Positions 15,668 to 21,534 of a stretch of 53,739 nucleotides of DNA are shown here, one piece after another. The notes beneath the pieces were generated by a model. It saw only the letters and a program-made list of their open reading frames with translations. It was not told the DNA's origin and ran no database searches. The DNA comes from Planctomycetota bacterium (GTDB lineage: Bacteria; Planctomycetota; UBA1135; UBA2386), in the NCBI GenBank assembly GCA_016872675.1, contig VGZG01000016.1, forward strand, positions 1 through 53,739, read 5' to 3'. The first letter of the stretch is position 1. Each line of letters begins with the position of its first letter. Both the position numbers and the translations under genes were made by a program.

Positions 15668-15715
15668 GCCGCAGGCTCATGCTACGAGCCGGCTCCGGCG
15701 CGCGCGATCGGCGCG

Positions 15716-16108
15716 TCAGGCCGTCGTCTGGCGGCTGCGGCGGCGACGCAGGATCGCGAGTCCAGTGAGGCCGCTACCGACGAGCAGCAGCGTGCTCGGC
15801 TCTGGAACGGGCTGCCCGGCACCGCCGCCACCCGGGTTAGGGCCCGTGCCGCCGCCGCCGGTATTGCCACCGCCGCCGGTATTGCCACCGCCGCCGGTAT
15901 TGCCACCGCCGCCGGTATTGCCACCGCCTGGGTTTTGGTTGCTGCCACCGCCTGGGTTCGTCGTGCCGCCACCAGTCGTCGTGCCTGGATCGGGCGGGTT
16001 GATCGGCGGCGGTGGGTTGCTCGGCGCCGGCAACTTCGTGCCGTCACCCCGACCGCAGCCAGCGATAGCTAGCACGGCGATTGCAGCGAGGGATCGGCAG
16101 ATACGCAT
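15716..16108 (-). CDS. Small PEP-CTERM lipoprotein
   Basis: 130 residues from ATG 16108. The start is chosen because it gives a classical lipoprotein signal, MRICRSLAAIAVLAIAGC, with Cys18 as the lipid site; upstream in-frame ATGs (16159, 16147) would bury it. The mature part is a Pro/Gly/Asn-rich low-complexity chain with perfect NTGGGG repeats. The C terminus is a complete PEP-CTERM sorting signal: VPEP at about 101-104, a hydrophobic helix (STLLLVGSGLTGLAIL) and an RRRR tail. PEP-CTERM proteins are recognised by exosortase and exported, often with exopolysaccharide. Having both a lipobox and a PEP-CTERM helix is unusual. No exosortase gene is in the window. The function is unknown. Confidence 0.85.
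   Translation of the reverse strand: MRICRSLAAIAVLAIAGCGRGDGTKLPAPSNPPPPINPPDPGTTTGGGTTNPGGGSNQNPGGGNTGGGGNTGGGGNTGGGGNTGGGGTGPNPGGGGAGQPVPEPSTLLLVGSGLTGLAILRRRRSRQTTA
15861..15928 (-). repeat. 18-bp tandem repeat inside PEP-CTERM gene
   Basis: Three exact copies of an 18-bp unit (GTATTGCCACCGCCGCCG on the + strand) plus 14 nt of a fourth, with no spacers. They are in frame and encode the NTGGGG repeat of the lipoprotein. Being a multiple of three, copy-number changes would lengthen or shorten the linker without a frameshift. Confidence 0.9.
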
Positions 16109-16454
16109 GAGTGTCGGCTCAGGCACGAACACAGGTGAGTGTCGCATGCTCCCAAGCAATCGTCGTGCCGAAGACTACAACTTGAGCCGAATGGTAGCGC
16201 AAGTCCCGGTCAGGAGGGTCCGTGGTGGGTACGCGCGGCGAAGAGGCGGCTTGGCGACTAGTGTCGGCAACGGCCGAGCAGATCCGGGCCCCGGGCTAGG
16301 CGGCGGCAGTACGGCGAGTCCATGCCGGGCTGCTCGGCCCTTGGCATGGGCACATCGGCGAACCAGCCTTCGTGGGGCAGGAGCCGCGTTGCGTCCGCCA
16401 GGCATGCGTATCGGCGGGTTTCCGCCAGCTCCGTCCGTTCTCCGGCGCTACGGC
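16109..16454. other. Intergenic stretch without a supported gene
   Basis: This 346-bp gap lies between the stop of the DUF4388 gene and the start of the PEP-CTERM gene, both on the minus strand. Short open frames here lack homology features. It holds the hairpin listed at 16320-16349 and presumably the promoter of the PEP-CTERM gene near its left end, but I see no clear -35/-10 pair. Confidence 0.5.
16320..16349 (-). terminator. Hairpin downstream of DUF4388 gene
   Basis: CCATGCC (16320-16326) pairs with GGCATGG (16343-16349), and GGGC (16327-16330) pairs with GCCC (16337-16340), with a 6-nt loop and a 2-nt bulge. It is 105 nt past the stop codon on the minus strand and could end that transcript. 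No T run follows, so confidence is low. Confidence 0.3.
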
Positions 16455-19400
16455 TTAGCGCAAGTCCCCGAACACGCGGATCACGTGGTCGGGCTCGATG
16501 ACCCAGACGGCGCCCGCCGACGCCATCGCCCGGCCGCGCTTGCTCGCTGCAAGGCGGTAGAGCACGGCGCCGGTGGCCGCGTCGCGGACCTCCGGGCCAT
16601 GTGTCGATGGCACGACCAAGCGATTGCCAAGGACGCACAGCGGTCCGGTCGGTTCGCTCTGCGACGTCGGCAGTTTGCGCATCGTTGGACGCCGCAGACC
16701 ATTGCCCTGAACGATGCCTGACCGGAGTGTCTGCCAGAGATCGTCGCCCCGGACTGTTGGCGTGCCGAGCGGTTCGTCGGCGAGTTCCATGCGCCAGCGC
16801 TCGCCATCGTCGACGCCAAAGGCGACCAGGGTGCCGTCGTCGTCGTTGGCGTACACGGCGTCGCCGTCACACATCGCTTGGATGGCCGACGCAAGTCCGA
16901 GCGAACCGAGCAGTGTCAGTCGCCGTGCCGCATCCAGTCGGTATACGCCGCCGTCACGAGCGACCACGACGAGCCCGCCGTCGTCCAGCTTCCCCCAGGC
17001 GATGGCCGGCGAGGGTAGCGCGAGGCGCGTGACGTCGCCGCCGTCGCGACCGACGAACACGAGCTGGCTCAAGGTCGTTGCCACGGCGAAGCCATCGCCA
17101 TGTTCCTTCGGCTCGATCTCCGTCGGGCAGCCCGGCACGGACCAAGACAAAGTTCCCGTCCGCGCGTCGAGCGCGCGGAGTTCACCATCGACGGAACCGA
17201 CGACCACAACGGCCTGCGACAGAAGCGGCACGGTCAAGACGCCGGAGAGATCGTTGGAGCGGAACTGCCACCGAAGCACGCCGCCAGCGCCTAGGCGGGT
17301 CACGACGCCAGCCCGGTCGACAAGCAGTACGTCCTCGCCGACCGATGCTGGCGCCATCTCAATAGCGGTGTTGTGCTTGCACAGCTCGCGTGGCAGCAGC
17401 GCCAGCTCGCTGGCGACTGCCGCCGGCGAGTCGCCCTGCAAAGTCGCCTGCCACGGCTCGAAGCCAGGCATGGAGACCTCGACGGACATGGGGCTGCCCG
17501 GCACGCGCTCGATGAGGATAGGCGTCTCGCCGAGGTCCTTGCCGTTGCAAGCCACCCTGGCGCCGCGCGGCACGCTGTCGATCCGGCACGGCAGGCGCAC
17601 GATCCGGTCGAAGGTGACGTCAGCGTAGGTCTGACGAAGGGCCTCGAGATGCCGCAAAGCAGTGCCGTGGTCGCCGTTGGCGGTGGCGGCTCCGATCAGG
17701 TCGAGCTGTTGCACGATCGCAGCGTTGCGGGCCACACGCTCGCGGAAGTGCGCCGTCAAGGCTGGGTCGCCTTGTATGGCCGACTCGAGTTCTCGGTACT
17801 GAGCGAGCGCGGAGCGGAAGTCGTTGGCCGCCTCACGTTCGACGGCACGTTGGAAGAGCGGGTCCAGGCGCCGCTGTTCCGCGTTCTTCTCGAGCGCGGC
17901 CGCGTACTCGCCTGCCAGTTGTTCCGCCGCCTCGACGCCGGCCGTTCCGGCCTGCAGCGCGGCGGCAAGCCTCTGCTGTAGGTCGGCCGTGATCACGGCG
18001 TCGTTCGCGGCGTCGGCGATCGCCGCGCGGAGGCTGCGCACCGCGGCGCGGAGGTATGGCGGGCACACAGCCTCCAGATCCGCGCTGGCACGCAGCAGGT
18101 CGGCCCGGTCGAGCAGGCTTCGGGCCGCCGGCAGGTTGCGTCCGGCAAGGCTCCTGGCCGCCTGCTCGATCTCGTTGGCCAGCGCACCGAGCCGTGTTGC
18201 AGCGACGTCGCTGGTCTCCTGGCGCATGTCCGGATCGGCGGCGATGGACCGATACTCCGCCAGCGCAGCGGCGATGTCGCCAGCGGCCAAAGCATCAGCG
18301 GCGCGAGCAAGTCGCTTCGTCGCTTCTGCCCGCTTCTGCCGCATGGCCCGCGCCTGCTGCAGGCTCTGGCTATAGTTGACCTGCGTTTGCAGGTCATCGA
18401 TCACGTCGCATGGTCCAAGCCTCTCGCTCCACATGGCAAGGCTCGCGGCCGCACGGGCGTGGTCTTCCCGGGCAACGTGCTGCGCGACCTCCTCGCGCGC
18501 GCGCGCCATGTCGGCGAGATGGGCGCGGTGGCTCCAGACGGCGAAGCAGAACGCGCCAATGGTCAGCGCGGCAGCGAGCATGCTGACGCCGCGGAACACT
18601 CGGTCAGCCCTGGTCCGGCGCCGCGCCCTGAGCATCTTCGCAATGTCGCCGCGCGAACGATCGAGGCGTAGCAGCGCGTCGTAGGCCTCGATGGCCAACT
18701 GGATCTCGCCGCGGTCATCGTGCAGGCGGGCGAGCTCCTCGAGAACGGTGGTCGCGCCGGTCAGGTCGCGGGACTTCTGGCGGGCGCGCGCTTCGCGCAG
18801 CATGATCGCCGGGCAAATCGTGTTGGTGCGCCGCGCGTCTTCGATGATGTCGAGAGCGGTGGGTAGCTTGTCTGCGGCGATCAGCGCGTCGAGGAGGTCG
18901 ATGGTGCACTGCTCCAGCTCCGGCGAAGCCGCGGGTGCGTGCGCGATCAGGATGGTGCGTAGAAAGCTGAGGGACCCGACTTCGTTCGGCTCAAGCCTGC
19001 GAGCGTCGCGGGCGAGCGCGAGCGCTGTTTCGCTGTCGGGATGTCGCTGGGCGGCCTCGAGCAATAGATTGCTAGCGAGTTTGTTCTCGCCGAGGCCCTG
19101 TAGACAAAGCGCCATGCTCTGTAGGACGCCGACCGGACGATCCCCTTGGCGGTCGCGCAAGGTCTGCAGCGTCATGAGCGCTCGCTGGCCGTTGCCGGCC
19201 TCGGCGTAGCGCTGCGCGGCTGCGACCATCGCCGGTTCACCGATGTTGGCGATCAAGCGCATTCTGATCAGGTCGCGTGCAGCGCGGGCGGCCTCGAACA
19301 GGCCGGTGGTCGTGCGTTCCGCGTGCTCGCGATAGCTGCCGGCGCCGTCGATCGCACGCAGCAGTTCCAGATGCAGATCGCCGAGCGAGCCGTTCTGGGG

Positions 19401-20048
19401 CGCGTCGGCGACGCGCTGCGGCACTTCATCGAGCGAGCCGATGGCCGCGAGAATGGCGCCCCACTCGTCGGTGCGGCGCGCCACCTCGAGCAACAAGCCG
19501 TTGATCGCGTACTCAGGGCATGCCTCCAGAAGGTCGCGTAATTCGCCCTGTGGTTCGCCCTTCCAGAACTCGAAGCTGCCGCTGCGCCACGTGAACAGCG
19601 CGAACATGTCCTCGGCGACCTGGTCGGCGACGATCTGGTCGACGACCTGCTGGCTGACGACGCCGGACTCGACCAGCAGCAGGCCTAGCGGTCGCCGATC
19701 CTGGCGCTGCCGCAGCAGCGCGCTGCGCAGCGCCTCCTGACTGCAGAAGTTACCGCTGACGAGGCGTTGACCGATCCGGCGCGCGAGCAGGCGGCCGGGT
19801 ATGTGAAGTCGGAGATACCCGTCGCGGAAGTGCGCCTGTCGTTCCTCGAGGGGGTTGCGGATGCGCAGCACGCCCTCCATCTTCGTCATGGCGAGCGTCT
19901 GGAAGACATCGGCGAGCTGGATTTGCTCGAGATCGCCGCGCATCGTGACGCTCTGCGTTTCGACCGACTGCGACGGTTGTTCCTGCGCCTCCGCCGAGAG
20001 CAGGAAATCGACTTCTGCTTCGCTGAGGATCTCGGACCGTTCAACCAT
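16455..20048 (-). CDS. DUF4388/PEGA/beta-propeller membrane protein
   Basis: 1197 residues from ATG 20048. The order is: a short LSEAEVDFLLS motif (about 8-18) like the N-terminal CheY-binding motif of FliM; a DUF4388 domain (about 36-110) and its helical extension; a helical TPR-like region (about 210-470); a basic stretch and one transmembrane helix (about 484-506); long alpha-helical, coiled-coil-rich repeats (510-800); a PEGA domain (about 809-873, DSVPRGARVACNGKDLGETP); and a C-terminal PQQ/WD-type beta-propeller (about 885-1195; SVDGELRALDARTGTLSW). The N-terminal half should be cytoplasmic and the PEGA-propeller half periplasmic. DUF4388 is seen in signalling and gliding-associated proteins. 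The specific role is unknown; a transmembrane signal or scaffold protein is inference. A TTG at 20066 is another possible start. The chosen start overlaps that of the divergent gene. Confidence 0.8.
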   Translation of the reverse strand: MVERSEILSEAEVDFLLSAEAQEQPSQSVETQSVTMRGDLEQIQLADVFQTLAMTKMEGVLRIRNPLEERQAHFRDGYLRLHIPGRLLARRIGQRLVSGNFCSQEALRSALLRQRQDRRPLGLLLVESGVVSQQVVDQIVADQVAEDMFALFTWRSGSFEFWKGEPQGELRDLLEACPEYAINGLLLEVARRTDEWGAILAAIGSLDEVPQRVADAPQNGSLGDLHLELLRAIDGAGSYREHAERTTTGLFEAARAARDLIRMRLIANIGEPAMVAAAQRYAEAGNGQRALMTLQTLRDRQGDRPVGVLQSMALCLQGLGENKLASNLLLEAAQRHPDSETALALARDARRLEPNEVGSLSFLRTILIAHAPAASPELEQCTIDLLDALIAADKLPTALDIIEDARRTNTICPAIMLREARARQKSRDLTGATTVLEELARLHDDRGEIQLAIEAYDALLRLDRSRGDIAKMLRARRRTRADRVFRGVSMLAAALTIGAFCFAVWSHRAHLADMARAREEVAQHVAREDHARAAASLAMWSERLGPCDVIDDLQTQVNYSQSLQQARAMRQKRAEATKRLARAADALAAGDIAAALAEYRSIAADPDMRQETSDVAATRLGALANEIEQAARSLAGRNLPAARSLLDRADLLRASADLEAVCPPYLRAAVRSLRAAIADAANDAVITADLQQRLAAALQAGTAGVEAAEQLAGEYAAALEKNAEQRRLDPLFQRAVEREAANDFRSALAQYRELESAIQGDPALTAHFRERVARNAAIVQQLDLIGAATANGDHGTALRHLEALRQTYADVTFDRIVRLPCRIDSVPRGARVACNGKDLGETPILIERVPGSPMSVEVSMPGFEPWQATLQGDSPAAVASELALLPRELCKHNTAIEMAPASVGEDVLLVDRAGVVTRLGAGGVLRWQFRSNDLSGVLTVPLLSQAVVVVGSVDGELRALDARTGTLSWSVPGCPTEIEPKEHGDGFAVATTLSQLVFVGRDGGDVTRLALPSPAIAWGKLDDGGLVVVARDGGVYRLDAARRLTLLGSLGLASAIQAMCDGDAVYANDDDGTLVAFGVDDGERWRMELADEPLGTPTVRGDDLWQTLRSGIVQGNGLRRPTMRKLPTSQSEPTGPLCVLGNRLVVPSTHGPEVRDAATGAVLYRLAASKRGRAMASAGAVWVIEPDHVIRVFGDLR

Positions 20049-21534
20049 GACAGGGCATCCCTTCAAATCGCGCAGCCGTCGAAGCCTCGACGGTTTGCGC
20101 CTGGGGTCGTTGCTCCTGGTTATCGGTCCCGTGGCGGTCCTGTCTCAACCTGCCCGGTGCCAGCTCGGCGCCGCCGATGGCAGCGGCCCTTGGCTGGCTT
20201 CTGCGCGCGACAGCGCGCTCCGTTCCCGCTGCTCAGACGCCTTGGCGGCGCCGGATCCCACAGAATTGTGGCGCCTAGTTCGCAGCAGCGGTCCAGGCGC
20301 CGTGGCGCCGTTGTGGAGCCTGTTGAACGAGGCGGTCAAGGACGAGGCGCGCTGGCGTCTTGCCGCCGCGATTGTCGCCGCCGGCGGCGTCGCCGAGGAC
20401 GCCAACCTGCTCCGTTGGTCGGCTGCGGCAGGTCGCTCGGCCCGCGACCGCGCGTTCGTCGCCTTCCTGCTCGCGCTCGGTCCGGCGCGGCTGGTCGGCG
20501 ATGCCCAGGGTGTCTTCGACTCCCTGCGCAGCCCGAGCGACTTCGCCATGGCGGTCGCGGCGTGCGCGGCGGCGCGTTTTCCGCGCAGCCATAGCTTCGA
20601 AGGCGCGACGTCGAACGATGTCGGCGTCGCAGCGGCGCTGGCGTACGCCGGGGCCGCGGCGACGCTACGGGCGACGCCGCCGGTCCGCAGCGACCGCCGG
20701 GAGCCCCTGTGGTGGCGCGGCACGCTCCTGCGCGCGGCGCATGCCGGTGCCAGCGGAATCGTGCGCGAGCGTGCGTTGGCGCTCCGCTTTGGCGGCGATG
20801 TGGAGGACGTAGGCCTGCGCGCTGCCGCGTGGCGCTGCGCCGCCATGGCTGGAGACGCGACGAGCGATGGTGAGCGACCCGAACCGTTCACGCTGGAGGC
20901 GCTGGCGGCCGACGCCGGCACGCGGTCGCGATTCCGGGCCTGGTTCGACGGCGTGGTGGCGCCGCGGTACGAACATCCGGAGCGCTTGGCGGTCGCGCAG
21001 ATGCTCGCAGCGACGCCTTCTGAGGTGGTCAGCGCCGCCGCGCGGTGGCGTGGCGACGCGACCGCCGAGCGGCACGTCGCGCTGGCCGTCGCTTGGCGCA
21101 TCGCCGGTGGCGAGTCGCTCGACATCGCCGGCGGCGAGGATGCCGCATGGGCCCCGGTCGCGGTGGCGCGGCGAAGCTCCGTCGCGGTCGACGCCGTCAC
21201 CGACGAGCCGTTGCGCGCGGCATTGCAACTACGCCTCGTCGGACGTCTCGGCGACGAGCCATTCCGCGCCGCGCTCGAGGATGGGCTGTGGCGATGGGGG
21301 AGCCATCCGGCGCTTGCCGTCTGGCGCCTCGAACGTCTGTTCGTTCGCGACCTCGTGCTCGCTGGCAGCCAGGCCGGCGCCGGCATGTACCAGCCGCACG
21401 TGCCGCCCGAGCAACGCTTCCTGCTCGAGGGCATCGGCGCCAGCGATCCGTGGTTCAGAGCGGCCGTTGCAGCCAATGAGTTCTTCGAACCCGCCACCAT
21501 GCCGATGCCGGCGGCGGCGAAGATGGCGCGTTAG
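20047..21534 (+). CDS. Secreted helical-repeat protein, unknown
   Basis: A 495-residue protein. ATG 20047 is chosen because it gives a good Sec signal peptide: basic KSRSRRSLDGLR, then the hydrophobic LGSLLLVIGPVAVLS, with cleavage likely near RCQLG. The mature protein is Ala/Arg-rich with repeated amphipathic helices, similar to HEAT or PBS-lyase repeats, and has no catalytic motif I can identify. Its first codon shares bases with the start codon of the divergent DUF4388 gene (CATG at 20046-20049), suggesting the two are expressed from internal promoters or controlled together. It converges with the cysteine desulfurase gene across 54 nt. Confidence 0.7.
   Translation: MTGHPFKSRSRRSLDGLRLGSLLLVIGPVAVLSQPARCQLGAADGSGPWLASARDSALRSRCSDALAAPDPTELWRLVRSSGPGAVAPLWSLLNEAVKDEARWRLAAAIVAAGGVAEDANLLRWSAAAGRSARDRAFVAFLLALGPARLVGDAQGVFDSLRSPSDFAMAVAACAAARFPRSHSFEGATSNDVGVAAALAYAGAAATLRATPPVRSDRREPLWWRGTLLRAAHAGASGIVRERALALRFGGDVEDVGLRAAAWRCAAMAGDATSDGERPEPFTLEALAADAGTRSRFRAWFDGVVAPRYEHPERLAVAQMLAATPSEVVSAAARWRGDATAERHVALAVAWRIAGGESLDIAGGEDAAWAPVAVARRSSVAVDAVTDEPLRAALQLRLVGRLGDEPFRAALEDGLWRWGSHPALAVWRLERLFVRDLVLAGSQAGAGMYQPHVPPEQRFLLEGIGASDPWFRAAVAANEFFEPATMPMPAAAKMAR

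Follow-up and report, generated by a model that had tools for sequence, protein, structure and literature searches.

The window analysed here, 53,739 nucleotides of contig VGZG01000016.1 (assembly GCA_016872675.1, a Planctomycetota bacterium), encodes on its minus strand a membrane protein of 1197 residues, here termed P0001, whose extreme N-terminus resembles the peptide with which FliM docks CheY. This tip is kept in all 27 orthologues compared that are complete at the N-terminus, and the protein further carries an MshE-type cyclic di-GMP (c-di-GMP) motif inserted in a DUF4388 (PATAN) domain. We tentatively read P0001 as a membrane-bound c-di-GMP receptor whose FliM-type arm would dock a receiver protein that does not belong to chemotaxis. 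The genome from which the window derives (G000) is 95% complete.

Under this reading, P0001 would be a single-pass inner-membrane signalling protein, in which the cytoplasmic PATAN domain with its inserted MshE-type module would probably bind c-di-GMP and the TPR-like repeats would act as a scaffold. The transmembrane helix would lead to a periplasmic long-helix stalk, a PEGA domain and a BamB-like propeller touching the envelope. The most likely role of residues 1-17, as a FliM-like short helix on a loose linker, would be to recruit a receiver-domain (CheY-like) protein, which need not be part of a chemotaxis pathway, and the c-di-GMP state and a response regulator might in this way meet on one membrane protein. 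Of the component claims, c-di-GMP binding by the PATAN/MshE-type module is probable, judging from motif and profile matches, and the docking of a receiver domain by the tip is a plausible suggestion that we make with some reserve. A fuller scenario, in which a transmembrane c-di-GMP receptor acquired the CheY-docking peptide, as a copy or a look-alike, would catch its receiver only in the right c-di-GMP state and has outlived flagella and chemotaxis in some lineages, is rather doubtful.

If the tip does catch a receiver domain, response-regulator docking peptides would be portable and could serve c-di-GMP receptors in the membrane, away from the flagellar motor; were the fuller scenario of coincident signals true, the FliM tip would be a portable docking module beyond the motor. 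This would also give an initial clue to what a large family does, since the profile of the cytoplasmic half matches 172 of 392 sampled genomes of the phylum at 1e-10 (some of these matches cover the TPR part only). The portions consulted of the literature found on the DUF4388/PATAN domain hold no treatment of the architecture of P0001, and, as judged by titles and the opening lines of abstracts, no paper was found that deals with FliM-like tips beyond the motor and the injectisome.

Conservation and FliM likeness of the tip

In a family search, 43 of the 154 genomes sampled from the order gave a match, with at least 30 loci; of the 30 taken, 27 have a complete N-terminus (L017, L024 and L029, at contig edges, were dropped). 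The N-terminus of P0001 is MVERSEILSEAEVDFLL, and its translation begins MVERSEILSEAEVDFLLS. All 27 complete N-termini fit Lx3E[VI][DEN]FLL, and the residue after [VI] is D or E in 26 and N in one; the motif starts six to seven residues past the start codon in all but L028, where it starts after four. Two extra carriers (L055 and L174) bring the total to 29. The linker behind the tip is not conserved across these N-termini, and we favour the reading of a docking arm because L8, E12, F15, L16 and L17 are invariant while the linker varies. The initial annotation had proposed a FliM-like N-terminal motif, and its conservation among orthologues bears this out.

For a quantitative comparison, a 14-column matrix was built from the N-termini of 26 FliM proteins of this order, with shuffles of the first 34 residues as a control. 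In each of the 27 complete orthologues, its best site was the tip (z 2.8-7.3, p 0-0.012). The pattern Lx3E[IV][DE]xLL has 12 matches in the DNA of the genome of P0001, and it stands seven to eight codons past a plausible start (judged by eye) only in the FliM gene, with the N-terminus MTQLTNEILSNDEIDALL, and in that of P0001; the remaining ten matches lie deep in longer frames or in spurious-looking ones. Furthermore, we surveyed 35,974 potential N-termini in 225 records (1,486,731 bases), a non-random sample, as much of this DNA was fetched because of the P0001 family, FliM or the pattern. The form of the tip with F was found in 29 distinct N-termini, all of the P0001 family, and the form without F in 32, namely 29 FliM and three N-termini from loci fetched by the pattern itself. 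On these sequence comparisons, the FliM likeness of the tip exceeds chance.

The tip shares with the docking motif of FliM and FliY (LSQxEIDxLL; 'EIDALL') its place at the extreme N-terminus, the L-x3-E-[I/V]-[D/E]-x-L-L spacing and a predicted short helix carried by a loose arm. It differs from it in the F fixed between D/E and LL, a position that the published motif leaves free in the section of PMC5677366 consulted, and in that Q is not conserved and I is mostly V. P0001 also differs from FliM in having no FliM domain (no match to PF02154 in Pfam), the FliM of the genome being a separate gene. AlphaFold2 gives a low-confidence helix at residues 10-22, and residues 1-6 and 20-30 have a predicted local confidence (pLDDT) below 50; the tip is accordingly predicted, from the model, to be a short helix tethered by a floppy linker to the cytoplasmic part of the protein.

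Domain architecture and the MshE-type module

The features of the gene are collected in Table 1.

Table 1. Features of the P0001 gene, by residue and by position in the window.
Feature	Residues	Position	Strand	Basis
Whole gene, membrane protein (stop codon included)	1197 in all	16455..20048	-	translation; 15 orthologues aligned over most of length, 27-46% identity
N-terminal tip, FliM-like motif LSEAEVDFLL at 8-17	1-17	19998..20048	-	orthologue conservation, FliM matrix, low-confidence helix 10-22
Linker, variable, probably disordered	18-33	19950..19997	-	column conservation low at 18-31; pLDDT <50 at 20-30
DUF4388 / PATAN	37-196	19461..19940	-	Pfam PF14332, 85 bits against gathering score 25
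MshE-type c-di-GMP motif, inserted in PATAN domain	91-143	19620..19778	-	NCBIfam NF053729, profile matches
TPR-like helical repeats	224-477	18618..19379	-	profile, model, fold matches
Single transmembrane helix, positive side N-terminal	~484-506	18531..18599	-	hydropathy; model helix 480-509
Periplasmic long-helix region	~530-807	17628..18461	-	AlphaFold2 model of C-terminal half
PEGA	822-870	17439..17585	-	Pfam PF08308, 40.4 bits
BamB-like beta-propeller	~888-1197	16458..17387	-	PQQ_2; Foldseek

The best hydrophobic stretch (487-505) directly follows the sequence RRRTRADRVFR. By the positive-inside rule, the positively charged flank lies on the cytoplasmic side, and P0001 is therefore predicted to be oriented N-in/C-out. 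The AlphaFold2 model of the cytoplasmic half (mean pLDDT 87.3) has helices 85-151 flanked by PATAN strands 78-82 and 158-163, followed by paired helices (224-477) and the membrane helix (480-509), and that of the C-terminal half (pLDDT 89.5) consists of long helices, PEGA and the propeller. TPR repeats in P0001 fall below the Pfam cut-off (TPR_7, 14.1 bits against 27.9); a profile built from the cytoplasmic halves of 29 proteins matches TPR/PPR proteins of solved structure, and the 50 best fold matches of the cytoplasmic-half model are mostly TPR-type proteins and include neither MshE nor PATAN structures. The periplasmic-half profile matches designed propellers and BamB, as does a Foldseek search with the propeller (BamB, E 3.9e-15; designed propellers, TMt ~0.8), and the best PQQ_2 stretch of P0001 in Pfam is 896-974 (47 bits). 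PQQ_2 was matched in all 26 members of alignment A3 and PEGA in 25 of them at E <=0.01; alignments A2 and A3 exclude L174 (a possible frameshift) and include L176, a protein of group f3 (see below) with a degenerate tip.

Domain searches, profiles, AlphaFold2 and Foldseek hence agree with the DUF4388 domain, helical region, single membrane helix, PEGA domain and propeller that had been proposed from the letters of the stretch. The periplasmic part had also been called a ligand-binding domain, which is not supported as stated, since the propeller resembles BamB. It has the fold of the BamB/PQQ_2 propellers (Foldseek) but is part of a membrane signalling protein, and the listed matches have 15-20% identity to it. 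PATAN response-regulator proteins such as PixE and PixG of Synechocystis share with P0001 the PATAN domain and a link to receiver-domain signalling; P0001, in contrast, has no fused receiver match (none to PF00072 in Pfam) and instead has the N-terminal docking-like peptide, a transmembrane helix and a periplasmic half.

The MshE-type c-di-GMP motif had been missed by the initial annotation. In P0001 it scores 41.9 bits with NF053729 against a cut-off of 38, and it reaches the cut-off in 29 of 29 tip carriers (L151 at exactly 38.0; L174 was scored here although left out of the alignments). The profile of the 29 cytoplasmic halves also matches the solved N domains of MshE, PilB and PilF (5htl, 9g1w, 6f8l). 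As in the MshEN/GSPII-B modules of MshE, PilB, PilF and NfrB, the motif comprises two 24-residue halves with a 5-residue spacer; in P0001, half 1 reads RIGQRLV... and half 2 PLGLLLV..., with P for R. It differs from those modules in being inserted in a PATAN domain and in the scarcity of the half-2 R. PATAN domains reportedly occur with an alpha-helical insertion, to go by the title of a 2006 paper of Makarova. The key residues (R, L, G, L, G, L-x3-L, Q) of half 1 are complete in 22 of 27 rows.

A sceptical view of this module would be that it is structural only and does not bind c-di-GMP, P0001 then being an envelope scaffold with the tip as a generic anchor. The absence of R from the first position of half 2 in 24 of 27 rows, and the N that P0001 has at a conserved G of half 1, are consistent with this view. 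We nevertheless consider it improbable, given that all tip carriers lie at or above a curated cut-off, that the genome has four GGDEF matches, and that a relaxed form of the MshE-type motif, in the part of PMC5013675 consulted, allows R, K, P or N at the position concerned.

Distribution of the tip and of flagellar and chemotaxis genes

In a tree of 66 rows (midpoint-rooted for drawing only), 26 carriers of group f1 form one group (100/100), which seven f3 proteins adjoin (96/85), followed by one f7 carrier; the 34 f1, f3 and f7 proteins group together (100/99). The tip was found in none of the 25 loci read among the best matches outside the order (L196-L220), within the up to 75 in-frame residues that precede PATAN, and most of these loci have a start codon directly before the PATAN domain. 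Likewise, it was not seen in four paralogues (one of them in the genome of P0001) or in three f4/f5 proteins. On these sequences the tip is restricted to one clade, and most simply it would have been gained once on an older architecture. A scan of genome contigs with the single protein gave no matches and an alignment-based scan 38 loci; no viral relatives were confirmed.

The domain order had been thought to be without a described counterpart. It recurs, however, without the tip: in all eight homologues without a strict tip that were scanned, DUF4388 is followed by a single strong hydrophobic stretch and then by PQQ_2; seven of the eight lack a tip and one (L049, the same gene as L176) has a degenerate one. 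PEGA exceeds the cut-off in two of the eight (L053 and L061), and because these two have all parts without the strict tip, the full order is not special to tip carriers. Of eight homologues scanned for the c-di-GMP motif, none reaches its cut-off (best 35.0, L180). The paralogue in the genome of P0001 (L002, contig C127) shows the same succession of DUF4388, hydrophobic stretch and PQQ_2, with no tip, no PEGA match and no c-di-GMP motif match at 0.01.

A FliM-type peptide binds phosphorylated CheY on its alpha4-beta5-alpha5 face, and the tip might dock the canonical chemotaxis CheY~P just as FliM does, which would tie P0001 to flagellar chemotaxis. The closest motif match is indeed FliM, and among the 29 tip carriers FliM is matched in 25 and CheW in 16 (in the 154 genomes of the order, FliM is matched in 51, 40 of them over the cut-off, and CheW-domain proteins in 67, 65 over the cut-off). 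The other 13 carriers, the genome of P0001 included, are draft genomes with no CheW match. FlhA and methyl-accepting chemotaxis proteins (MCP) were checked in 19 genomes of our choosing, 16 of them tip carriers, and in 11 of these 16 neither CheW nor MCP was matched. Three of them, G124 and G125 (one genus) and G141, which are 92, 94 and 89% complete, also lack FliM and FlhA matches; their tips are intact (ILNEAEVDFLL, ILNEAEVNFLL and LLDDDEVEFLL, respectively). Draft genomes can miss genes, but here all four markers are absent at once, and this in two genera. Because the tip stays intact without CheW or MCP matches, and in three genomes without FliM or FlhA matches as well, chemotaxis CheY is unlikely to be the sole partner, and we regard the docking of CheY~P in the manner of FliM as very improbable.

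The initial annotation had joined a possible cytoplasmic docking site for response regulators to the periplasmic half. The tip does lie on a predicted floppy cytoplasmic arm, as this requires, and chemotaxis CheY as its ligand is made unlikely by the 11 of 16 carriers; the observation is confirmed, and the interpretation partly supported, about half of it being right. Other receiver proteins may be considered, and the genome of P0001 has 32 receiver-domain matches. In the portions consulted of the papers concerned, Cle proteins, which are CheY-like, bind the FliM tip without needing phosphorylation (PMC5677366), and PATAN domains occur with response regulators on the type IV pilus motor PilB (PMC10519157, PMC7690835).

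Three further genomes were put forward as flagellum-free carriers and rejected: G126 and G127, which have no FlhA match, possess FliM with LTSEEIDSLL and LSSEEIDTLL, and G094, without a FliM match, has FlhA. The sets of G126 and G127 (one genus; L221 5575-6585 and L222), with FliM and no FlhA, CheW or MCP match, may be reduced or incompletely assembled, and the FliM of G126 is adjoined by small frames resembling, by eye, FliL and FliN.

The genome of P0001 has FliM at 48035-48601 of contig C21 and FlhA at 19707-21653 of contig C49, with no CheW or MCP match. This FliM keeps an intact CheY-docking motif.

A docking arm or a convergent helix, and the gene neighbourhood

None of the seven f3 proteins reaches the c-di-GMP cut-off (best 22.2), and the reading of P0001 as a c-di-GMP receptor with a docking arm is also favoured because f3 has lost both this score and the strict tip. 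Almost equal to it in our estimation is the view that the FliM likeness is convergent, the tip being an amphipathic acidic helix that acts in cis, as a lid over the PATAN/c-di-GMP module, or on a non-receiver partner. F15, invariant in the family yet not seen in FliM tips, would suit such a helix, as would the f3 tips, which keep the hydrophobic spacing and F but not E-[VI]-[DE]. The joint disappearance of the c-di-GMP score and the strict tip in f3 fits a contact in cis, and the tip is retained where chemotaxis genes were not found. However, AlphaFold2 gives the tip no confident placement, the FliM-matrix match is strong in most rows, E12 is invariant in carriers and would be unneeded by a mere hydrophobic helix, and in L056 the tip is almost complete although the c-di-GMP score is lost.

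Several observations speak against the preferred reading of a receptor with a docking arm for a receiver protein. The position of F15 is A or T in 28 readable FliM tips (of 30 loci) and S in one further FliM, V mostly replaces I in the family tips, so that the surface read may differ, and the block holding the tip has a pLDDT of only ~42-55. In the c-di-GMP motif, half 2 opens with P in 15 of 27 rows and with R in just 3 (the half 2 of L025, with a 5-residue insert, was misread in this count), and without this R the affinity for c-di-GMP may be low. The outgroups L196, L197 and L199 exceed the c-di-GMP cut-off without any tip, from which we infer that the motif is independent of the tip and probably older. 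All seven f3 proteins depart from the strict tip (LEDEALDFVL, LDDEALDFVL, LKDEELHFLM, LGNKEWNFLM, two with altered spacing, and LQDEELDFLL), and yet their genomes mostly have FliM (6/7) and CheW (5/7); the last of these tips, that of L056, departs at a single place though L056 scores just 22.1 for the c-di-GMP motif. That both have changed in f3 is no more than suggestive, and since f3 is one clade it counts as about one event. Finally, the five receiver domains of the genome of P0001 recovered with a home-made pattern include no clear partner, nor does any of the ten window frames scanned with Pfam match a chemotaxis or receiver family.

In 21 neighbourhoods (the window and 20 others), a pseudouridine synthase, an aminotransferase of class V, ThiF and an amino-acid permease recur by BLAST, together with a ferredoxin named by eye. 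The Pfam domain scan of neighbours covered ten frames of the window, and the neighbourhood was rejected as a clue to the partner, as nothing in the scanned part points to one. A gene of family F6 (window ~20100-21534, plus strand), with no Pfam match at 0.01, is divergent to the P0001 gene and occurs in 17 of the 21 neighbourhoods. On the other side of P0001, a small minus-strand frame at ~15690-16130 (ends approximate) has a lipoprotein-like N-terminal stretch and NTGGGG repeats, and its C-terminal VPEPSTLLLVGSGLTGLAILRRRR resembles what we take to be a PEP-CTERM sorting signal.

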